From Caldanaerobacter subterraneus (GTDB lineage: Bacteria; Bacillota; Thermoanaerobacteria; Thermoanaerobacterales; Thermoanaerobacteraceae), in assembly GCF_004345675.1 (NCBI RefSeq), contig NZ_SLWU01000010.1, positions 1 to 64,000 on the forward strand: DNA of 64,000 bases, read 5' to 3'. Made by a program: the position numbers and the translations under genes. Each line of letters opens with the position of its first letter. Within the stretch, counting starts at the first letter, position 1. Below are positions 7,806-55,571 of this stretch, piece after piece. The notes beneath the pieces are model-generated. The model saw only the letters and a list, made by a program, of their open reading frames with translations, searched no databases and was not told the origin of the DNA.

Positions 7806-8814
7806 TTTCCTTCCCCTCACTGTAGAATCTATACACCACTTCTTCTAATGTTGGATCCATAATCTCAATATCTGAAATATTGTATTTGTTTAAAATTTCT
7901 TTCGCCACATCCTTTGAAATGCTTTCTTCTGCACTAATTGTAAGGCAGTTTTCTTCCTTTGATATGACTGATACACCTTCTATACTCAGGAATTTCTTTT
8001 CTAGACTTTCATCAAATACCTCATCAAAACAGATTTTTATAAATTTCCTGCCAAATATTTTTTTCTTCAGCCCCTCAATATCTCCATCATATAATTTCCG
8101 ACCTTTATCAATCATTATAACCCTTGAAGCACATTTTTCTATATCTTTCATATTATGGCTTGTGAGGATTACAGTAGCCTTATAATCCTTTACATACTCT
8201 TTTAAAAAATTGTGAAGTTCATTTTGTGAAAATATGTCAAGCCCTAAAGTTGGTTCGTCTAATAAAATTAACTTTGGCTCCCATAGCAAATTTGCAACTA
8301 TCTCCGCTTTTTTTCTCTGCCCATGGGAAAGGTTTCTCACAGGACTTTTTAAAATATCTTCTATCTTCATCATTTCAGAAAGTTTGTCTACTCTATTTTT
8401 ATATTCGCTATACGAAAGATTGTAAATTTCTTTTATAAAATAAAAGCCGTCCAAAACAGGTAGGTCCCATGCTACTTCTTCAAGAAATCCCCTTGATGCC
8501 ATAATAAAGCTTACTTTAGATAAAAATTTTTTACTCCTTTTGTATGGAATTTCATCAAGCACACGAACTTCTCCTTCTGTAGGGAAAAGGACTCCTGCAA
8601 GAATTTTCAAAGTAGTAGTTTTGCCTGCCCCATTTGGTCCTATATATCCTACAATTTCTCCTTCTCCTACATTAAAAGAAACTCCTCTTAATGCTTCAAC
8701 TTCTTCATATAAAGGTTTAAATATACTCTTTACACTTTCTATAAGGCCTGCCTCTTTCACCTGTCTTCTATAAATTTTTGTAAGATTGGCTACTTCAATT
8801 ACATACCTACTCAT
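7798..8814 (-). CDS. ABC transporter ATP-binding protein (COG4586-like)
   Basis: The 338-residue ATPase has Walker A GPNGAGKTT, signature LSHGQRKK, Walker B LILLDEPTLG and a C-terminal extension of about 90 residues typical of this exporter group. It is the first gene of the set and overlaps the first permease. A promoter upstream is not obvious; a gene tail (8853-8945) and the second MFS gene lie immediately upstream on the same strand, so transcription may come through them. Confidence 0.88.
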   Translation of the reverse strand: MSRYVIEVANLTKIYRRQVKEAGLIESVKSIFKPLYEEVEALRGVSFNVGEGEIVGYIGPNGAGKTTTLKILAGVLFPTEGEVRVLDEIPYKRSKKFLSKVSFIMASRGFLEEVAWDLPVLDGFYFIKEIYNLSYSEYKNRVDKLSEMMKIEDILKSPVRNLSHGQRKKAEIVANLLWEPKLILLDEPTLGLDIFSQNELHNFLKEYVKDYKATVILTSHNMKDIEKCASRVIMIDKGRKLYDGDIEGLKKKIFGRKFIKICFDEVFDESLEKKFLSIEGVSVISKEENCLTISAEESISKDVAKEILNKYNISDIEIMDPTLEEVVYRFYSEGKEND

Positions 8815-8852
8815 TTTTCTCCTCTGCCTTTCAAAAATTATGTTTAAAATCC

Positions 8853-8945
8853 TTATTCCCTCTTTATAAATAAATCAACATCTATCCACTTAACTTTACC
8901 TAATACATCAAGTAACCTGTCAATTTCTTTTGCAAATCTTCTTCC
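8853..8945 (-). pseudogene. C-terminal fragment of an unknown gene
   Basis: Directly after the second MFS cassette one frame stays open for about 30 codons to a TAA at 8853-8855 and reads RFAKEIDRLLDVLG then KVKWIDVDLFIKRE. It has no start and begins where the MFS similarity ends. It differs from the tail beside the first MFS copy (4880-4990). I interpret it as the remaining end of a gene displaced by the duplication; the family is unknown. Confidence 0.4.
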
Positions 8946-8967
8946 CTATTGTCTAAAGTACTCAAAG

Positions 8968-10161
8968 TCACAGCTCTTTTTCTAATCCTATTGCCCTTTT
9001 AAAAGGTATACTGGAAATTAAAGCTGTAATTAAAGATAAGAAAAGTGCAGCATAAAGACCCTTTTTGTCACTTAAGACTCCAAAGGAGTAAGTACATAGA
9101 ATTGTAGAAACACTAATAAACAAACTATATATTGAAATAATCGTTGCACGCTCTGAAGAAGGTATTAACTTATTAAAATAAGACATAAAAATCGGAGTGT
9201 GTGCAGAATATACTGCTGTATAAATAATATAAGGTATAAACGAATACTTGGGAATCGCATACATCATAAATATAAACAATGCAGATGTAATACTGACAAT
9301 CATTAGTGTGCGAGCTGCCCCTTTAAATCTTTCAGCTATCCTGTCAGCATAACGGGGCACAAAAATACTAAGTACCATCGTTAATGCTAAAATAATACCA
9401 AACAATTCTACAGGTATGCCTGCCCTTTCGAAATAGGGCTGCCACAACATTGACATGATTCCTGACGAAAAAAAGAAGAAAAAAGACCCGACTGTAATGG
9501 ATAACAAAATCCTGTGTTTAAATAGATACACAGTTCCTTTAGCAATTTTATTAAAATACTCTCTGTAACTGTATTCGTCCGTTTTTTTCTGTAATTTAGC
9601 TTCTTTGCCCGCTAAAAATACGTAAATAAAAACCAAAAAAATCCCTATACCTTCTATTAGCCAGATTTCTCTAAAGATATTATAACGTACTAAAACGCTG
9701 CCTCCTAAAAATCCTATCGTACTACCTAAATAGTTAAAACTTGTAAGACGTCCCCAGTATTTTGTCAGGTCTATTTCTTTTTGACCGAAAAGAAATGAAT
9801 CAGCAAACCAAGATTCAAAGGCTCCAGAATTAAGAGTTGCTCCAACTCCTGATAAGAAATATAAAAATAATAAAACTGTAAAAGAGGTGTTGAAATATAT
9901 CCCAATAGAAGTTAAACTGCCAATCAATAAAGATAAAAGAACAGAAAATTTACGGCTATATGTATCAGCAAAAGCACCCGTAGGTATTTCAAATAATGTG
10001 ACCGCTATGTGGTTTATTATTATGAGGAGTGAAATTTGTGAAAAATCTAAATTAATTTTATTAAAATATATTACCCAAAATGGTGCCATTAAAGATGTAA
10101 AAAAACTTGAAAACAATGTTACTGTCAAGAAAAATCGTTCATTCCTTTTTAAATTTTGCAT
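8968..10161 (-). CDS. MFS efflux transporter, copy 2
   Basis: The 397-residue near-duplicate of the gene at 5016-6215 keeps motif A and the same membrane layout. Differences are few, for example Phe for Leu in LFGQKE, Ile for Met in the next residues, Thr for Met near residue 55, and Ala for Gly in DRIAERF. The repeated DNA runs from about 18 bases before the start to about 22 bases after the stop. Such close similarity means a recent duplication or gene conversion. It should have the same efflux role. Confidence 0.86.
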   Translation of the reverse strand: MQNLKRNERFFLTVTLFSSFFTSLMAPFWVIYFNKINLDFSQISLLIIINHIAVTLFEIPTGAFADTYSRKFSVLLSLLIGSLTSIGIYFNTSFTVLLFLYFLSGVGATLNSGAFESWFADSFLFGQKEIDLTKYWGRLTSFNYLGSTIGFLGGSVLVRYNIFREIWLIEGIGIFLVFIYVFLAGKEAKLQKKTDEYSYREYFNKIAKGTVYLFKHRILLSITVGSFFFFFSSGIMSMLWQPYFERAGIPVELFGIILALTMVLSIFVPRYADRIAERFKGAARTLMIVSITSALFIFMMYAIPKYSFIPYIIYTAVYSAHTPIFMSYFNKLIPSSERATIISIYSLFISVSTILCTYSFGVLSDKKGLYAALFLSLITALISSIPFKRAIGLEKEL

Positions 10162-10275
10162 TTATTTAAATCCTCCTCTGAAGGAATAAATTTACCAAGT
10201 GTAATGTGAAAATCAAAAGCTCTATTTAAACCATTTCTAACACTTATGTCTTTAAAAGTACGCAGAGAAGCAAAC
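10149..10275 (-). pseudogene. Orphan coding fragment upstream of MFS copy 2
   Basis: A frame overlapping the MFS start reads FASLRTFKDISVRN then GLNRAFDFHITLG and KFIPSEEDLNKCKI before a TAA at 10149-10151. It looks like real protein but has no start; upstream it runs into the inverted repeat at 10273-10340. The second MFS gene starts inside it. I take it as the end of a lost gene that once preceded the transporter; I do not recognise the family. Confidence 0.35.
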
Positions 10276-10340
10276 AAAGAGGACGGTTCTTCCTTTTTGA
10301 ATAATTTAAAATTGAGACAAAATGAACCGTCTCCTTTGTC
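10273..10340. repeat. Inverted repeat with ACGGTTC arms
   Basis: Arms of about 16 bases at 10273-10288 and 10324-10340 (core GACGGTTC / GAACCGTC, ending in ACAAAG / CTTTGT) pair nearly perfectly around a 35-base AT-rich centre. The same arm sequence recurs in the hairpin at 15521-15555. It sits exactly where the truncated regulator copy and the orphan fragment meet, so it may mark the break. It looks like a small dispersed repeat. Confidence 0.5.
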
Positions 10341-10372
10341 TGCTCTGAAATAAATCCGTTAACAGAAGAGTT

Positions 10373-10764
10373 ATGTCACAGTAGTGCTCCTTAGGTCTTA
10401 CATACACTACCCTCTTTAATCGCATTGCCATTGAAATTGCATTTGTACCACAGCTTTCTTCTCTAAAGGATACCCCCGGTTCAAAGCCTGAATTTTTTAT
10501 ACACTTTTTCTCTTTTGTGCTGCATTTTACATCCAATAAATCTCCTTCAATGTCAGTAAGCAAAAATAGATATTCACCTTTTACCCAATCCTCTTCTACA
10601 CTCATATGAAAAGCTTCTATGAGTTCTTTATTTTTATGTATTTTCTTTTGCAAATCTCCTGAATTCAGTACCACTAATGGCACAGTTATTGAAGGCTCAA
10701 TACCTATTTTACTACATCGCTTATATGAAGAAATTAGTTCCTACTGTGAACATAAAAAATTCAC
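10373..10764 (-). pseudogene. Broken copy of the GAF/LuxR regulator
   Basis: This stretch matches the first half of the gene at 1546-2328, down to the CGTNAISMA and KEHYCDI motifs. It starts with GTG, has an in-frame TAG at codon 8 (10741-10743) where the intact copy has Glu, and loses all similarity at about 10373, before the end of the GAF domain. The helix-turn-helix is gone. The upstream control element (10841-10868) is still present. It is a decayed paralogue and should not make a functional protein. Confidence 0.85.
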
Positions 10765-10840
10765 TTTTTATACCTCCCCTGAAATTTAAAGGGCTTTTTA
10801 AATATTATAAAATATTTAAAATAAAACTTGTGAATTTTAG

Positions 10841-10868
10841 AGCGAAAGTGTCATTTTTGGAAGCGAAA
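10841..10868 (-). promoter_or_regulatory. TTTCGCT direct repeats, regulator element copy 2
   Basis: Two TTTCGCT boxes (10841-10847 and 10862-10868, minus strand) keep the 21-base spacing and surrounding sequence of the element upstream of the intact regulator at 2403-2430. They now sit in front of a pseudogene. Confidence 0.5.
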
Positions 10869-10982
10869 ATATATTTTTCGCCTAATATTTACCATTCTTA
10901 TCACCTAATAAAAAATGGACAGATTTTTTTCTGTCCTTATAGATAAATTTTACAAAATTAATATTTGGATTATATTTCTAAA

Positions 10983-11405
10983 TTATTTAAATAAAACCAT
11001 CTCTTCAGGGTTAACAGGATGTATAGAAGTTATATATGCCCAAAGCCCAAACCAACCATCATAATAAATATCTGAGGAATTAATATAGTTACTATAATCT
11101 AGACTAAGAGATATTTGGCTCCCGCAATATTTGCATTGGCATGGTATTCCCCACCATGTACCAACTGTCCTATTGGAAGAATCCTTTAGCGTTATAGAAG
11201 TATTTCGGCCTGAACGGTAAAAATGATGCTTGCCATCAGGTGAACCACCTGGACAGTAAACTACATACAAAGGTTCAATTTGACTCTTAATTTTACTTGT
11301 ATCTTTTAGAGGAATTATGTTGTCATTACCTACATTAGCAAATACAATACCAGATGACAAAACAATTAAAACAGCTACTGAAAAAAACATAAGTATCTTT
11401 TTCAT
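10983..11405 (-). CDS. Small secreted protein with a Cys cluster, unknown family
   Basis: The 140-residue protein has a clear signal peptide (MKKILMFFSVAVLIVLSSG, cleavage likely after IVFA), so the mature form is about 115 residues. The mature part has CPGGSPDGKHHFYRSG near its start and a GIPCQCKYCGS cluster in the middle, giving four Cys that could bind metal or form disulfides, then an aromatic-rich C-terminus. I do not recognise the family. It is 39 bases downstream of the lipoprotein gene on the same strand and very likely shares its module promoter at 12172-12215. Confidence 0.7.
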   Translation of the reverse strand: MKKILMFFSVAVLIVLSSGIVFANVGNDNIIPLKDTSKIKSQIEPLYVVYCPGGSPDGKHHFYRSGRNTSITLKDSSNRTVGTWWGIPCQCKYCGSQISLSLDYSNYINSSDIYYDGWFGLWAYITSIHPVNPEEMVLFK

Positions 11406-11444
11406 AGGAAATCCACTTCTTCCTTAATTACATAATTCGCATTT

Positions 11445-12050
11445 TTAATTTTCTAATGGGTCAAATTTTGTTATATATTGAACTAATTTGTTGTTGAATT
11501 TATTATATTCCATTTTTTCAAATGGGATATTATTTGAATACAAAGCCTGGTCAATGTATTGTATTTTCCAATCATTATTTTCTTTTACAAAAGCATATTT
11601 TCTAGTAATAACTATACCAGTAATATTTTCTTTGTTTTTCGGCATGTACGGCTGAATAATGTTTGCTTTCGTAAACACATACTTGTATTTTCCATCACTG
11701 TATATTTTTGAAATTTCTACTTCAACTTTATCTTCTTTATTCTCCTTTATGTATTTCTCCCTTATATTTTTTAACTGTTCATCAGTAAAATTTCTTATGT
11801 CTATTTCCGCATATTTTCTCTCATAGTGTTTATTTTCATCAAATGCATTAACAAATAAGTCTTTCAGTCCTTTTAAATATTCCTCATACGTCAAAAAGTA
11901 GTTTGAAAATTTGTGATCTAAGATTTCAACTTTTTTGACTGTATTAATTATATAGTCATCGGTTTTTGTATCAGTACTTTCCGTATTACAAGCTGTAAAC
12001 AACAAAGTACTCAAAACAAATATCATTAAAATTATACTTATTTTTTTCAA
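11445..12050 (-). CDS. Lipoprotein of unknown function
   Basis: The 201-residue protein starts with TTG behind AAGGTGATGG and has a lipoprotein signal with lipobox LLFTAC (lipidated Cys21). The mature part is highly charged and Lys-rich, with KYAFVKENNDWKIQYIDQ near the C-terminus, a pattern seen in small NTF2-like or DUF4829-type lipoproteins; that placement is weak. It is the first gene after the module copy at 12060-12440, whose promoter and leader match those of the 37-codon ORF at 1055-1168. It may act with the secreted protein that follows. Confidence 0.7.
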   Translation of the reverse strand: MKKISIILMIFVLSTLLFTACNTESTDTKTDDYIINTVKKVEILDHKFSNYFLTYEEYLKGLKDLFVNAFDENKHYERKYAEIDIRNFTDEQLKNIREKYIKENKEDKVEVEISKIYSDGKYKYVFTKANIIQPYMPKNKENITGIVITRKYAFVKENNDWKIQYIDQALYSNNIPFEKMEYNKFNNKLVQYITKFDPLEN

Positions 12051-12171
12051 TAACCATCACCTTACTCTATTATATTCTATTTTCTCTTAATATCTTGGTT
12101 TTTTAAATTTCTAATCTCAACAAGAGCATCTCCTCCTTCTTTTCCTAAATTTCTATACTTTTTCCATTTTC

Positions 12172-12215
12172 ATTGTACAATAAAATAAATAGCATGTCTA
12201 CTATATTTTAGTATA
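12172..12215 (-). promoter_or_regulatory. Promoter with abutting palindromic site, module copy 3
   Basis: On the minus strand TATACTAAAATATA (12202-12215) runs into TAGACA (12195-12200), then a 17-base spacer and TACAAT (12172-12177). Layout and sequence match 1430-1475 with one change in the palindrome. The transcript would start near 12165 and lead, after a leader of about 115 bases, into the lipoprotein gene. Confidence 0.6.
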
Positions 12216-12372
12216 GTCTTTATTACATTACCAGTTAATGTTTACATAAATAAGCAAAACTTTAAAGCTAATGTCGGTTTGCAGTTTGGATTTTTTTACA
12301 TGTTCTCATTTATGAATTTTAAAACAACTTTTTAATATTAGACAATTTTTTAATAAAATTTATGAAATTTGG

Positions 12373-12400
12373 AACGAAAGTGTCATTTTGGAGAACAAAA
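12373..12400 (-). promoter_or_regulatory. TTTCGTT direct repeats, regulator element copy 3
   Basis: TTTCGTT (12373-12379) and TTTTGTT (12394-12400, minus strand) are again 21 bases apart within sequence matching 2401-2460. No regulator gene follows. Confidence 0.45.
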
Positions 12401-12461
12401 ATGCATTTTTCGTCTAATATTTTCCAATTAGAAAGTTATAGATTTAGATTTTTCCCTGGCG

Positions 12462-12470
12462 TGTTATAAT
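12462..12470 (+). promoter_or_regulatory. Extended -10 promoter of the acetyltransferase gene
   Basis: TGT followed by TATAAT (12465-12470) makes an extended -10 about 50 bases before the acetyltransferase start. No good -35 is visible. Confidence 0.4.
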
Positions 12471-12518
12471 AAAAATACACAGTAATCTTTGAAAGCGGGA
12501 TATGCGGGAGTGATAAAT

Positions 12519-13004
12519 ATGGAAAATATTGAGATTATCCCAGTTACTGAAAAATCAACTTTAAGCAATTTCAAAAAATATCTCATCAAACTCTACCTTG
12601 AAGCCTATTCTTCTTTTCCAGAATATGCGTATAATCATCCTAGAGAAGTAAAAGAATATCTTCAGTGGCTTTTTAACCACAGCCAGGGAGGATTCTTTGT
12701 AGCCTTGGAAGATACCATGCCTATAGGTTTTATATCTACTGACCCTTCATGGGAAGACCACTGGTTGGGGGAAAAAGTAGGAGAAATTCATGAAATAGTG
12801 GTAAGCCCCTCCTCCCAGAAAAAAGGAATAGGAACTCTACTCCTAAAAAAGGGAATAGAGTTCCTACAGGAAAAAGGCCATCACACAATAGGGCTTTGGG
12901 TGGGAATAGAAAACTCTAAAGCTCAAGATTTCTACAAGAAGCATGGCTTTACACCAGGTCCTCAGGCGGGTAAGTGGCTTAGAATGTATTTAAAACTCAA
13001 GTAA
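12519..13004 (+). CDS. GNAT family N-acetyltransferase
   Basis: The protein has about 161 residues when started at the ATG preceded by GGGAGTG; an upstream in-frame start at 12489 lacks a binding site. The acetyl-CoA loop motif is SQKKGIGTLLLKKG, followed by the NSKAQDFYKKHGF motif that ends many GNAT folds. It transfers an acetyl group to an unknown amine. Its last 15 bases overlap the convergent M20 peptidase gene. Confidence 0.85.
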   Translation: MENIEIIPVTEKSTLSNFKKYLIKLYLEAYSSFPEYAYNHPREVKEYLQWLFNHSQGGFFVALEDTMPIGFISTDPSWEDHWLGEKVGEIHEIVVSPSSQKKGIGTLLLKKGIEFLQEKGHHTIGLWVGIENSKAQDFYKKHGFTPGPQAGKWLRMYLKLK

Positions 13005-14093
13005 TCGGTAGAAAAATTTTTCAAGAAGTTCTTTTCCTTTTTCCAGTTCTTGAATATCTATATATTCAAAAGGAGTATGAGCCAAAGCTAAATCTCCTGG
13101 CCCCCATATCACAGGTTTTATACCTTTTGCCCAGAAATTGTGGGCGTCAGTCCAGCTCTCCATTATTTTAAATTTTGGTTCTTCATTGTAAACTTCTCTA
13201 TAAAGTTTTTGCAAGAATTGGCCAAAATCTGTGTCCTCATCCGTCTCCCACGAAGGAGCCCATTCTTCAACCAATTTGCAATGAACTTCTACATCTTTAT
13301 CATTTTCTAAAAGAGAATTTACTTCTTTTTCAACATCAGAAATAGGCACTTTAGGAGGTATGCGTATATCAAAGTTGAGGCGCGTCTCATGCGGTACAGA
13401 ATACTCTTCACTTCCTCCTGATATAAAAAGGGGAGTAATTTGGACAGGGATATCTGGTTTGTAAAGGGTATTAAGTTTTGAGAGAGCTTCTTCCATTTTT
13501 ATGATAAATCTTGAAGCCCATGTAATAGGATTTTTCCCTCTTTCAGGAATACTCCCATGGCTGGGAATACCTTTTATTATCAATTCATATTCCAACGCAC
13601 CACAGGAAGAAAAAGCTAATTTACTTTGTGTAGGTTCAAGCACTAGAGCATATTGTATAGAAGATGGCAAAGAACTGGCCAAATGGCACGATCCTTTCCC
13701 ACCCTTTTCTTCATCAGCTACAAATGCTATCCAAACACCGGCTCTCTCCCATGGAAATTCCCTTCCAAGTTTTTTTAAAACTTCTAATAAAATAGCCACT
13801 CCTCCGAGCACATCTGAGGCCCCTCTTCCGTATATTCGCCCATTTTCTTCTCCCTCTTTTGTTTGATAGCCCTCTATAACAGGGGGGACTACATCGTAGT
13901 GGACTTCTACTATAAACTTGGGAGAAGGACTTAAAGGCAGAAGAATATTATACATATCCTCCTCTACCACTTCCAATTTCCAGTCCAATCCTATAGATTG
14001 AAGGGCTGAAATAATGGGAATAAGTGCACCTCGCTGAGGGTCAGTAGAGGCTTTTCTAATAAGGGCTTTAAGCAGTTCTTTCGCCTCAATCAT
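12990..14093 (-). CDS. M20 family metallopeptidase (ArgE/DapE/ACY1 type)
   Basis: The 367-residue zinc enzyme has the M20 motifs in order: VEVHYDVVP with metal His and catalytic Asp, GRGASDVLGG with the bridging Asp, ADEEKGG with the catalytic Glu pair, LEPTQ, a dimerisation domain starting at KGIPSHGS, and a C-terminal metal His in LALAHTPFEY. Family members deacylate amino acids or cleave dipeptides; the substrate cannot be fixed from sequence. A GAGGTGAG box precedes the ATG. It is monocistronic and convergent with the acetyltransferase. Confidence 0.88.
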   Translation of the reverse strand: MIEAKELLKALIRKASTDPQRGALIPIISALQSIGLDWKLEVVEEDMYNILLPLSPSPKFIVEVHYDVVPPVIEGYQTKEGEENGRIYGRGASDVLGGVAILLEVLKKLGREFPWERAGVWIAFVADEEKGGKGSCHLASSLPSSIQYALVLEPTQSKLAFSSCGALEYELIIKGIPSHGSIPERGKNPITWASRFIIKMEEALSKLNTLYKPDIPVQITPLFISGGSEEYSVPHETRLNFDIRIPPKVPISDVEKEVNSLLENDKDVEVHCKLVEEWAPSWETDEDTDFGQFLQKLYREVYNEEPKFKIMESWTDAHNFWAKGIKPVIWGPGDLALAHTPFEYIDIQELEKGKELLEKFFYRLLEF

Positions 14094-14189
14094 GAGCTCT
14101 CACCTCTTTTACACGGGATAACACACTCTGCCCATATGGTAGCAAATTGATATGTTTAGGTCAAGCACTGAAAGTTTGAACAATGAATA

Positions 14190-14218
14190 TTGCAAAAACC
14201 CCTTATATTCTATATAAT
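14190..14218 (+). promoter_or_regulatory. Promoter of the isocitrate dehydrogenase gene
   Basis: TTGCAA (14190-14195), a 17-base spacer and TATAAT (14213-14218) form a near-consensus vegetative promoter, about 80 bases before the start codon. Confidence 0.7.
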
Positions 14219-14298
14219 AGAATCAAGCTGTGATAAAAAATCGCAATAAAGCATTTTAAAAATTTTATTGTTACATTTTAAACAAAGGGGAGAAGAAA

Positions 14299-15510
14299 AT
14301 GGCACAAAAAATTGAGATGAAGGTTCCTATTGTGGAAATGGACGGAGATGAAATGACAAGAATTATATGGAAATTAATAAAAGAAATGCTTATAAAGCCC
14401 TATGTAGATTTAAAGACAGAGTACTATGATTTGGGCATTAAAAACAGAGATGAAACAGAAGACCAGGTCACAGTTGATGCAGCATACGCAATAAAAAAAT
14501 ACGGAGTCGGGGTAAAATGCGCAACAATCACCCCAAATGCTGAAAGAGTAAAAGAATACAATTTGAAAAATATGTGGAAAAGCCCTAACGCTACTATACG
14601 ATCCATACTCGATGGGACAGTATTTCGCACACCTATTCTGGTTGAAGGAATAAAGCCGCTTGTAAGGACATGGAAAAAACCTATTACAATTGCAAGGCAT
14701 GCTTATGGGGATATTTATAAAGGGGTAGAATACAGAATCCCTGAAAAAGGTAAGGCAGAGCTTGTCTTTACTTCTGAAAAAGGAGAAGAGATAAGGCATG
14801 CAATACACGAGTTTGAAACTCCTGGCGTCATATTAGGTATGCACAACACTGATGAGTCAATAAAAAGTTTTGCGAGAGCATGTTTTAATTACGCTTTAGA
14901 TACGAAGCAGGATTTGTGGTTTGCGACTAAAGACACCATTTCAAAAATATACGACCACAGATTTAAAGACATATTCCAGGAAATATATGAAAATGAATAT
15001 AAAGAAAAATTTGAGGAAGCAGGAATTGAATATTTCTACACTCTTATTGACGATGCAGTAGCCCGTGTACTGAGGTCTGAAGGTGGAATGATTTGGGCAT
15101 GCAAAAATTATGACGGCGATGTAATGTCAGATATGGTGGCAACAGCCTTTGGTAGTCTTGCCATGATGACATCAGTATTAGTCTCTCCTGATGGAAAATA
15201 CGAATTTGAAGCAGCTCATGGAACAGTTACAAGGCATTATTATAAATACCTTAAAGGAGAAGAAACTTCTACTAATCCCATTGCTACAATTTTCGCATGG
15301 ACAGGCGCTTTGAAAAAGAGAGGAGAACTTGACGGAATAAAAGACCTTGTCAATTTTGCTAATAAGCTTGAAAAAGCCTCACTTAAAACGGTTGAAAAAG
15401 GGATAATGACAAAAGACTTAGCTATGCTATCTGAATTGCCAAATAAAACTGTTGTAAACACGGAAACTTTCCTCATTGAAATTAAAAAAACTTTAGAAGA
15501 GATGCTGTAA
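14299..15510 (+). CDS. icd: NADP-dependent isocitrate dehydrogenase (eukaryotic-like subfamily)
   Basis: The 403-residue protein converts isocitrate to 2-oxoglutarate and CO2. It has the eukaryotic-type start ([16 protein letters not shown]), [12 protein letters not shown], the substrate loop [17 protein letters not shown], and the nucleotide-binding [11 protein letters not shown] region. This is the homodimeric subfamily otherwise known from mitochondria and some bacteria, distinct from the E. coli-type enzyme. AAGGGGAG precedes the ATG. It has its own promoter and ends in a hairpin, so it is monocistronic. In anaerobes without a full citric acid cycle it serves glutamate synthesis and NADPH supply. 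Confidence 0.95.
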
Positions 15511-51543: not shown

Positions 51544-51567
51544 AAGGGAGTGGAAAACCACTCCCTT
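51544..51567 (-). terminator. Terminator of the double 5'-nucleotidase gene
   Basis: AAGGGAGTGG pairs perfectly with CCACTCCCTT around four A, 5 bases past the stop codon, with a T-rich tail on the minus strand. Confidence 0.85.
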
Positions 51568-51571
51568 TAGT

Positions 51572-54500
51572 TTATTTTGTATATTTTGCATATACATATC
51601 CAAATCCGCCATTGTAGAGTACTTGATACCATCCGTTGTACTCTCCAACCACTTTAAGCTCCGTTCCGTATGGCACTGCTCCTATCTTTCTCGCATTGAT
51701 AGAATTGTTTACTCTTACATTTAGTCCACTCTTAGCAGTGACCTTAACAGCTTTTAGCACAACAACATTTGACGGATTCGGAGTTGCAGCAACATACTTG
51801 CTGTAAATATATCCTGTCTTTCCGTTGTAGTTAATCTTATACCAGCCATTTACTTCTTCAAGCAGTGTAACAACTTTACCTGCAGGAAGCACTCCTATTA
51901 CCTTATATCCAAGCCCTGCGCCTTCTCTCACATTAAGTGCTGATGCTGTGACAATTCCGTAATTGTAAACTGGCTGAGAAGCTGTCTGTTGTTCTGTCTG
52001 CTGTGATGGCTGAGTTGTACCCTGGCTTACTTCTGCTTCTTCCTGTACTGGCGTCGTTGAGATGTACCAATCGCTCTCAACCACAGGGCTTATCGTGCCG
52101 TGCTCCTGTATATATCTTATCATCAAATTCCTTACCTGTCCGTCATCACCATATACTTTTGCAGAGTCAAACACAACTTCTGGATTCGTTATTCCAGCAG
52201 CCTGCATAAATCCACCGCCACCGTTGAACCTGTAGTTATTTATTGCGACAGTGAATACATCATCATCTTTTACAAGTTTGCCATTTACTTTGAGGTTTTT
52301 GATTCTGTGTCCTGCCGGCTGTGTCAAATCTATCACATAGCTTGCACCGTACAGCTGGTCGAGGTTGTAATCAGGTATATTGAGTGTCGGATCTTTTGTT
52401 ATTGGATCATTTGGTGAAGACACTTGTTTGTAATACCTTGCTGACCACTCCAACCAAGCCTTTAACTGCTTTCCAGTCATCTTTATTCCATAGAGGTAGT
52501 TCTCATAAACATACACGCCCATTATATCCTGTATAGTGATGTCACCTTTTAATATCTTAGCTGAGCTGCTCAAAGGTGCTGCAATTGAGAGGTCTGTCTT
52601 TGCATAGTATTTCTGCACTTTGTTTATAAGGTCCATTATTGCTGTAGGCTTTATTGTTTGTTCTGTGCCCAAGAAATCGCCTGTTGCAACCCCAATCTTT
52701 GTGCCAATGTATTTTAATGTAGCATCGTGATATGGCTGTGCCAAGTTTATTATCTCAGGGTCTGCCTGTATTGAATCGTCCATTTTTATTGTAGTGCTCC
52801 ATTTGTCTGCAATTACCCATTTGCCCTGATCGTTCTTTGTGATATCAAAGTATATCTGTGATACATATTCACCCCACTTGCGAGGCTGTGTAACTATTAC
52901 AGTCTGTCCTGATGGATTCTTGTAGTTATGCTGCGGTATATTAACATGAGTATGCCCTGCAACTATTGCATCTATTCCATCGACATTCGTTGCCACTGCA
53001 ATTACCTGGTTTTCTGGTATTATGTCTGTTGGTTTTTCTTCACCAGAGTGCATTGTGACCACTACAATATCTGCCCCTGCTTCTCTTAATTTTGGCACCC
53101 ATTTCTTAGCTTCATCTACAAGGTCATTGAAGTGAAGTCCTGCGTAATTTTCTTTGTTTTCCCATGCAGGTATCATCTTAGTTGTTAGTCCCAGGATACC
53201 TACTCTGACAGGTCCTTGAGGTGTATTAAATGTTTTGATGTAATAAGCGTCTACATAATTTGTTCCATCATCTTTGTAGGTATTAGCAGAAAGAACATGT
53301 ATTCCTTCGTTTCTCATATCCTTTATTACTCTGTTTAATACTTCAAGTCCATAGTTAAACTCGTGGTTTCCTAATGTCCAAGTATCATACTTCATTGCGC
53401 CCATCACTTTTGCAAGTGGATACTCTGTCTTCGTGTCTATCTTGTTATAGTAGTAAGATAATGGTGTACCCTGTATTGTATCTCCATTGTCAACAAGCAC
53501 TACATAAGGATACTTTTCTCTCACTTGCTTTACATAAGTTGAAACTTTTGCCAATCCTCTGTTAGCAGGCTTAGCCGTGTTGTAATCCCATGGGAATATA
53601 TTGCCATGTATATCAGATGTAGCAAGAACTGTGATTAATGTACCCTCTTTTGTAGCAGGAGCAATTCTTCCGTCTATTACTGAAGTTATTGTCCCCTGCT
53701 CTTTTACTGCTTCAATGAAAGCATCTCTTACAAGTTTGTAAGTATCGACATAGCTCTTCTTTACCTCAGGGTCAGTAAATCCTGTAAAACCGTCTCCACC
53801 TGTACCCATAAAATTATTTGTAGCAACAAGGTAGGACTTATTCATGTCTATAGGTGTACCGTCAGATTTTCTCATGTCAAATACTCTGTGCATTGAAGGC
53901 CTGGTGGGGTCGTATTTGAAGGAAAGTCCTGCAACCTGTATACCCTTTCCTCCGTCTTGAACTGCCTGTTCAAGAATTGTCTTAATCTGAGCACCTGTCA
54001 TCTTCATCGTAACTATTGTGTTATCAAAAGGCATTAACTGATACATCATTCCAACGGTTATATCGCCTTTTGGAATGTCAATCCTAAGGCCACCGTTATT
54101 GGCAAATCCAAAATCTGCATTGACTGCCTTCCTTGTCACTTCAGCTGCCCAGTTACCAAGCAATGAATCCCCATAGGGTTTAGCACTCTGAGTTCTTGTC
54201 AAATCTATTGCCGCTTTGCCTATAACTTCATTAAATATAGGTCCTACATCTTCATTGGCTTTGTCAACTATTGCCTGTACCTCTGGGTCAATATACTTAG
54301 GGTCTATATTTGGTGTGGAATAAATCTTAGTAAGGTCAATGTATTGCATGTCACCAGCTGTGACAGTTCCATCTTCATTAACTGTAATCTTCAGGTGAAT
54401 AATTCCCTTCCCGTAATTTGCAGCAACTCCAACTGGTATTCCGTTAACCCTTGTAGTAACTATAGTATGAGTATGTCCGCCAAATATAGCATCTACACCT

Positions 54501-55261
54501 TTTACCTGTTTTGCAAAGTCTATGAGGTTGCCAGTTACATTTCCAGAGCTATCTTTATATGCTCCCATGTGAGCCAAAACCACAACAATCTTTACACCTT
54601 GCTGTCTTAGCTGCTGTGCAAGGTCATTTACAATTGGCACAGGGTCTTTAAAATCTACATTTTGTATAAATGCCGGCATTATTATAGTGGGGAATTCCTT
54701 GTTGTCTACAATACCTATTATTCCAATCTTTACTCCATCTCTTTCAATAACAACATATGGTTTTACATAGCTCACTGGCTTGCCTGTGGTTTTGTCATAC
54801 ACGTTTGCAGCAAGAACTGGAATTGTGGAATTCTTCAAAGTAGCATTCTGCGTGTCAATTACTGACTCAATACCCCAGTCATACTCATGATTGCCAAGAG
54901 CCATTGCATCAAATCCGATGTTTTTCATCATCTCAATGACTGGCTTGCCCCTTAGCACATTAGAAAGTGGCGTTCCTTGGAACATATCCCCGCCGGACAA
55001 AATCACTGTTCTGTCGGGGTTTTGTGCTTTTATGTCTTTAATTTGTTTTGCCATTACAGCTGCTATCTGCTGCTTGTACAAAGTGCCATCAGATGTCTTA
55101 CCATCATTTTGTAGGTAACCGTGGAAGTCTGTTACTTCAATGAAATCGAAGGTCTTGGAGGTTGCAGCAAATGCGATTTGTGGCACTGACGGGAAAATGA
55201 GGCTAAAAATCAATAGAGCTGCAACCAGAATGGAAAGAAGACGTGACCTTTGACTAAACAT
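51572..55261 (-). CDS. Secreted double-headed 5'-nucleotidase / cyclic phosphodiesterase with SH3 repeats
   Basis: The 1229-residue exported protein has a signal peptide (to about residue 33) and two complete 5'-nucleotidase units. Unit 1: metallophosphatase with TDFHGYL (Asp45, His47), GNHEYDW (123-129) and GGHTHT (261-266), then a C-terminal substrate domain with NNGG (388) and GTGGDGF (486-492). Unit 2: SDIHGN (Asp550), GNHEFNYG (631-638), AGHTHVN (768-774) and its own substrate domain (to about 1045). A Gln/Thr linker leads to two SH3-type wall-binding repeats (1103-1158, 1171-1227). It should free phosphate and nucleosides outside the cell. A Pho box precedes the gene. Confidence 0.93.
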   Translation of the reverse strand: MFSQRSRLLSILVAALLIFSLIFPSVPQIAFAATSKTFDFIEVTDFHGYLQNDGKTSDGTLYKQQIAAVMAKQIKDIKAQNPDRTVILSGGDMFQGTPLSNVLRGKPVIEMMKNIGFDAMALGNHEYDWGIESVIDTQNATLKNSTIPVLAANVYDKTTGKPVSYVKPYVVIERDGVKIGIIGIVDNKEFPTIIMPAFIQNVDFKDPVPIVNDLAQQLRQQGVKIVVVLAHMGAYKDSSGNVTGNLIDFAKQVKGVDAIFGGHTHTIVTTRVNGIPVGVAANYGKGIIHLKITVNEDGTVTAGDMQYIDLTKIYSTPNIDPKYIDPEVQAIVDKANEDVGPIFNEVIGKAAIDLTRTQSAKPYGDSLLGNWAAEVTRKAVNADFGFANNGGLRIDIPKGDITVGMMYQLMPFDNTIVTMKMTGAQIKTILEQAVQDGGKGIQVAGLSFKYDPTRPSMHRVFDMRKSDGTPIDMNKSYLVATNNFMGTGGDGFTGFTDPEVKKSYVDTYKLVRDAFIEAVKEQGTITSVIDGRIAPATKEGTLITVLATSDIHGNIFPWDYNTAKPANRGLAKVSTYVKQVREKYPYVVLVDNGDTIQGTPLSYYYNKIDTKTEYPLAKVMGAMKYDTWTLGNHEFNYGLEVLNRVIKDMRNEGIHVLSANTYKDDGTNYVDAYYIKTFNTPQGPVRVGILGLTTKMIPAWENKENYAGLHFNDLVDEAKKWVPKLREAGADIVVVTMHSGEEKPTDIIPENQVIAVATNVDGIDAIVAGHTHVNIPQHNYKNPSGQTVIVTQPRKWGEYVSQIYFDITKNDQGKWVIADKWSTTIKMDDSIQADPEIINLAQPYHDATLKYIGTKIGVATGDFLGTEQTIKPTAIMDLINKVQKYYAKTDLSIAAPLSSSAKILKGDITIQDIMGVYVYENYLYGIKMTGKQLKAWLEWSARYYKQVSSPNDPITKDPTLNIPDYNLDQLYGASYVIDLTQPAGHRIKNLKVNGKLVKDDDVFTVAINNYRFNGGGGFMQAAGITNPEVVFDSAKVYGDDGQVRNLMIRYIQEHGTISPVVESDWYISTTPVQEEAEVSQGTTQPSQQTEQQTASQPVYNYGIVTASALNVREGAGLGYKVIGVLPAGKVVTLLEEVNGWYKINYNGKTGYIYSKYVAATPNPSNVVVLKAVKVTAKSGLNVRVNNSINARKIGAVPYGTELKVVGEYNGWYQVLYNGGFGYVYAKYTK

Positions 55262-55323: not shown

Positions 55324-55377
55324 AGTATAACAAAAAAGTGTTAAATTGAAGTTAAACTAGTATTAATTTTGTGTAAA
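55324..55377 (-). promoter_or_regulatory. Pho box and promoter of the 5'-nucleotidase gene
   Basis: On the minus strand four hexamers stand with 5-base gaps, an exact 11-base period: TTTACA (55372-55377), TTAATA (55361-55366), TTAACT (55350-55355), TTAACA (55339-55344). Nine bases further is TATACT (55324-55329) as -10. This is the layout of Bacillus PhoP-activated promoters, where four TTAACA-like repeats fill about -22 to -60. It suggests induction by phosphate starvation. Confidence 0.75.
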
Positions 55378-55538
55378 TTAAATCATACATCAGATGTCAG
55401 ACAAGCTTTGATTTAATTATATAAAACACTTCTTTTGCCTTTCAATTTTGATATAGCGCAATTTTGCAAGAACTTTTTGGCCTTTGCTCTTATTTTCTCC
55501 CAATTTTATACGTTTTCTCTCTCTTGTAAACATTTTTA
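55378..55538. other. Spacer between mtlD terminator and Pho box
   Basis: No gene is visible. An 11-base palindrome ACATCAGATGT lies near 55387-55397. Nothing else stands out. Confidence 0.4.
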
Positions 55539-55571
55539 AGGGCATTTTGTGCCTTATCACAAAACGCCCTT
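55539..55571 (-). terminator. Terminator of the mannitol operon
   Basis: AAGGGCATTTTGTG pairs with CACAAAACGCCCTT (one mismatch) around CCTTA, overlapping the end region of mtlD, with T-rich sequence in the minus direction. Confidence 0.8.

Follow-up and report, generated by a model that had tools for sequence, protein, structure and literature searches.

It is textbook knowledge that secreted nucleotidases come under phosphate control (PMC4415409, PMC8475336); yfkN of Bacillus subtilis, a member of a phosphate-starvation regulon (PMC8475336), encodes a secreted nucleotide phosphoesterase with two domains. We analyzed a stretch of DNA of 64,000 nucleotides (64 kb; hereafter, the window) in which a site resembling the B. 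subtilis PhoP box, a tandem array of TT(A/C/T)A(C/T)A hexamers, precedes a gene for a secreted nucleotidase. The likeness to the B. subtilis box extends to the hexamer, the 11-bp period, the number of copies (four), the place before the -10 element, and the pst genes as co-target. The system differs from the B. subtilis Pho regulon in its Thermoanaerobacter host, in that a box before phoPR was not found, and in its kinase, which is PnpS-type by model. That the Pho box of the nucleotidase gene is an ordinary instance of a familiar site type is well supported.

The gene downstream of the box and the elements that flank its transcription unit are as follows (window positions):

51572 to 55261, minus strand: regulated gene, encoding a secreted double nucleotidase of 1229 amino acids, assigned by sequence
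51544 to 51567, minus strand: intrinsic terminator after the nucleotidase gene, preceding a tRNA-dihydrouridine-synthase-like ORF downstream
55538 to 55571, no strand assigned: inverted repeat AAGGGC...GCCCTT, between an upstream mannitol-1-P dehydrogenase-like gene and promoter P1 (see below)

The encoded protein carries two metallophosphoesterase/5'-nucleotidase pairs, comprising an N-terminal UshA-like half (residues ~32-523) and a C-terminal CpdB-like half (~541-1093), plus two SH3 domains. It is thus a secreted phosphate-releasing enzyme of the kind that an earlier note on this DNA had proposed, and it resembles B. subtilis YfkN in being secreted, in having two nucleotidase halves, and in its phosphate-type control. 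However, the order of the halves is reversed relative to YfkN (CpdB then UshA), SH3 domains are present at the terminus, and the protein falls under the NCBIfam cut-offs for YfkN-type proteins and is not recognized by the YfkN model. The CpdB-UshA order is retained in two relatives (G020 and G022). The T-run of the upstream inverted repeat lies on the plus strand only, so that minus-strand transcription from upstream could still read through into the nucleotidase gene.

Between positions 55377 and 55324, the minus strand reads TTTACA-caaaa-TTAATA-ctagt-TTAACT-tcaat-TTAACA-cttttttgt-TATACT, with the following elements:

55339 to 55377, minus strand: Pho box of four hexamers with an 11-bp period, assigned by sequence and by conservation in orthologues
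55377 to 55372, minus strand: hexamer TTTACA
55366 to 55361, minus strand: hexamer TTAATA
55355 to 55350, minus strand: hexamer TTAACT
55344 to 55339, minus strand: hexamer TTAACA
55324 to 55329, minus strand: TATACT, the -10 element of promoter P2, separated from the last repeat by 9 bp

The four hexamers, their 11-base steps, the 9-base gap, and TATACT are all as the earlier note had described them, on the minus strand. Taking transcription to start ~7 nt below TATACT, the box would span about -60 to -22, which agrees with the Bacillus PhoP-like placement (about -22 to -60) claimed in that note. The place of the P2 -35 element at 17-bp spacing is occupied by ACTTCA, which does not match a -35 element, and P2 is absent from the sigma-70-like matches, as would be expected for an activator-dependent promoter.

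A motif scan of the kind suggested in the note returned this box as the top site in the window, with agreement to four TTHAYA repeats at 23/24 positions, and no other site in the 64 kb matched at more than 21. The high AT content of the region and the degeneracy of the hexamer could in principle generate such periodicity in intergenic DNA by chance. Yet order-2 Markov copies of the window yielded a mean of 0.017 matches as good as this box, the best score among 3000 order-1 copies of the 311-bp intergenic region stayed below 22, and boxes at ≤1 mismatch, of which the real genome has five, were absent from eight order-4 Markov genomes of 2.58 Mb each (model built from 200 kb of the genome's loci). 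Comparison between Thermoanaerobacter and Thermoanaerobacterium points the same way, with identity of 79% in the repeats and 80% in the -10 element as opposed to 13% in the spacers and 19% in the upstream flank. We therefore assign a negligible probability to chance periodicity. The retention of hexamers amid diverged sequence is the pattern of a binding site, a contrast that common descent alone would not yield.

In six of seven further genomes from two genera, the boxes at ≤1 mismatch, which were the top matches, comprised the nucleotidase site and pstS- and pstC-type sites, the latter two assigned by sequence and spacing; one of these genomes (G006) has the pstC-type site in an extra copy. 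The seventh genome, Thermoanaerobacterium G015, carries a nucleotidase box with two mismatches, and three other sites appear there. The 9-bp step from box to -10 element is retained in most nucleotidase orthologues, and the third spacer is longer by one base at one orthologous locus (L006). Among more distant relatives, G011 has four repeats with no -10 element at 9 bp, and G029 and G031 have three repeats followed by 9 bp and TATAGT. Further boxes occur around a second nucleotidase cluster in G015, and a box precedes a solute-binding ABC operon in both G015 and G006.

The window's own genome (G000) encodes a phoP-phoR-pstS-pstC-pstA-pstB-phoU cluster in a single direction on contig C8 (positions 8360-14860), in which the following genes were located:

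C8, 14138 to 14860: phoP
C8, 12775 to 14166: phoR
C8, 11822 to 12736: pstS
C8, 8360 to 9046: phoU

PhoR scores above the curated cut-off for PnpS, the Gram-positive phosphate-type kinase (417.6 versus 400 bits), and PstS, PstB, and PhoU likewise pass their curated cut-offs. PhoP is the genome's best PhoB match, yet it falls under the curated cut-off (263.6 versus 296.2) and also under that for YycF (273.3 versus 340), and its naming consequently depends on linkage to its neighbors. The PhoPR regulon predicted in the earlier note is supported by a PhoP/PhoR pair beside pstSCAB-phoU, with the regulator named by linkage. The note had also anticipated matches at the pst and phoPR promoters. The former were recovered: the pstS box, unlike any other four-repeat box in the genome, has no mismatches, and it lies 9 bp from the -10 element TACAAT; a box between pstS and pstC has one mismatch. 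The latter was not, in that no box was found upstream of phoP at ≤3 mismatches. The start of phoP lies 21 bp after an nrdR-like gene, and an autoregulatory box before phoPR is not demanded of every Pho target.

Three other genes in this genome are weaker candidate Pho targets. Pho-like sites precede a phosphodiester glycosidase gene (C13:29058-29100) and a PhoH2-like gene (C1:124104-124146). Three perfect repeats followed by 9 bp and TATAAT lie upstream of the gene for an EAL/GGDEF protein (C21:40366-40408), with a site also in G006; by its sequence, this site makes a link between phosphate and c-di-GMP possible. A box at C7:5993 was rejected as a Pho promoter, since it is directed toward the 3' end of a gene convergent with it and lacks a -10 element at the 9-bp distance.

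With eight full-length OmpR-family regulators encoded in the genome, the repeats could instead be bound by a regulator other than PhoP, either WalR/YycF (C29:4504) or one adjacent to htrA (C32). When reverse-complemented, the repeats read TGTWAA-N5-TGTWAA, which we take to resemble the WalR consensus, and a YycF-like protein is indeed present, scoring 328 bits against a cut-off of 340. Moreover, two tandem sites, each of three TTNANA repeats positioned 9 bp from TATAAT, precede an htrA-like gene (C32:20381-20594) and adjoin another OmpR-family pair, and related genomes show similar pairs of sites at their htrA promoters. However, the sites at htrA consist of three repeats with spacers rich in TTTG, the orientation of the nucleotidase repeats toward the gene matches that of Pho sites, and the top four-repeat matches are consistently pstS, pstC, and the nucleotidase gene between genomes. 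The htrA sites probably represent a separate regulon that shares the 11-bp repeat grammar. This indicates that the grammar is a trait of the regulator family and that attribution to PhoP depends on the accompanying genes; on those grounds, binding by another OmpR-family regulator appears unlikely.

Upstream of the Pho box is a second module:

55416 to 55445, minus strand: promoter P1, TTGAAA-18-TATAAT, sigma-A-like (11/12 consensus)
55387 to 55404, minus strand: candidate GntR operator TTGTCTGACATCTGATGT, with core TGTCTGACA, located 11 bp downstream of the P1 -10 element

P1, which is 92 bp upstream of P2, is conserved in Thermoanaerobacter orthologues. Its presence raises the alternative that PhoP binds the box to repress or insulate, for example by blocking read-through from P1, rather than to activate P2. 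A transcript from P1 would indeed run through the box, which is located downstream of that promoter, and repression is also known for Pho regulators (PMC4415409). We nonetheless consider this very unlikely, given that the box is 9 bp from a good -10 element and that most orthologues, as well as pstS, share this spacing. Much the most probable reading, from sequence comparison, is that the four-repeat array is a true binding site for PhoP (PnpR-type) that activates P2 of the nucleotidase gene under phosphate limitation. At low phosphate, the PhoR/PnpS kinase would phosphorylate PhoP, which would then occupy the four 11-bp repeats head-to-tail along a single face of the helix and recruit RNA polymerase to P2, a promoter with a good -10 element but without a -35 element. 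Phosphate freed by the additional secreted nucleotidase would then be available to the Pst transporter, the genes of which bear the same box.

The candidate operator was invariant in all ten Thermoanaerobacter genomes searched. One copy of its 15-bp core, TTGTCTGACATCTRA, precedes the nucleotidase gene, and one inverted copy precedes a nucleoside (bmp) operon encoding a BMP/PnrA-type lipoprotein, an ABC transporter, a GntR/UTRA regulator, a cytidine deaminase, and phosphopentomutase-like and nucleoside-phosphorylase-like proteins. Across the family, 18 of 20 genomes carry the core before the bmp operon without a mismatch. The window's genome has the same bmp arrangement on contig C16, with one mismatch in the operator and 92% identity in the GntR protein. 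In that genome, transposase-like ORFs separate the gene for the BMP lipoprotein from the ABC transporter genes (C16:28982-30086), and the lipoprotein differs from that of relatives, with the operator retained apart from the one mismatch. The site is present at the nucleotidase gene in 19 family genomes with this gntR, and G011, which has no close GntR and is the one family member lacking this regulator, has no operator site at its nucleotidase gene either. In two other families, where the GntR is 52-58% identical, related TGTC(T/A)GAC-type motifs precede the gntR operons. P1 and the operator also occur without a Pho box before purine-nucleoside-phosphorylase-like and secreted tyrosine-phosphatase-like (SH3 domains) genes (G003:C13, G004:C10).

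The operon that bears the candidate operator encodes a GntR protein with a UTRA domain, a likeness to the HutC/UTRA subfamily. The operator core is GT-N3-AC, which is FadR-like, as opposed to the GT-N4-AC usual for the HutC subfamily (PMC4494728). UTRA regulators do not usually have such a core, which lowers our confidence in the pairing of this operator with this GntR. An RNA element or riboswitch was considered for the 18-mer and rejected, there being no Rfam match and its orientation relative to transcription being opposite at the two operons, an arrangement that a DNA operator fits. Two further sets of sequences were set aside: a one-mismatch 15-mer in G011 (C1:846665), which overlaps the start of a coding ORF, has no nucleoside gene, and was taken as chance; and copies of TTGTCTGACAATTTATGT (three mismatches), which are close to a tRNA gene and are not consistent with the operator reading.

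The enzyme yields phosphate and a nucleoside, so that the regulon of each product would own one promoter. We somewhat favor the interpretation that P1 and P2 form a two-input OR gate in which the phosphate input is the older and the nucleoside input was gained within the family; the phosphate input is read as older because G011, G029, and G031 have the box without the operator. In such a gate, GntR would repress P1 from a site at ~+6 to +23, and the presence of nucleosides, or of a derivative, would release P1.

No publication on a Thermoanaerobacter Pho regulon and no study of the GntR of the nucleoside operon were found in a search conducted mostly without subscription papers, which is weak evidence of absence, and a dual phosphate/nucleoside promoter arrangement was likewise not found in this limited search of the literature. 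If true, the arrangement would be a clean case of one gene sensing both products of its enzyme via two promoters, and a GntR-type nucleoside regulator would gain a defined 15-bp operator. The Pho box and its counterparts at the pst genes place a Pho regulon, with a short list of targets, in Thermoanaerobacter and Thermoanaerobacterium, thermophiles of interest for the production of ethanol and acetate.
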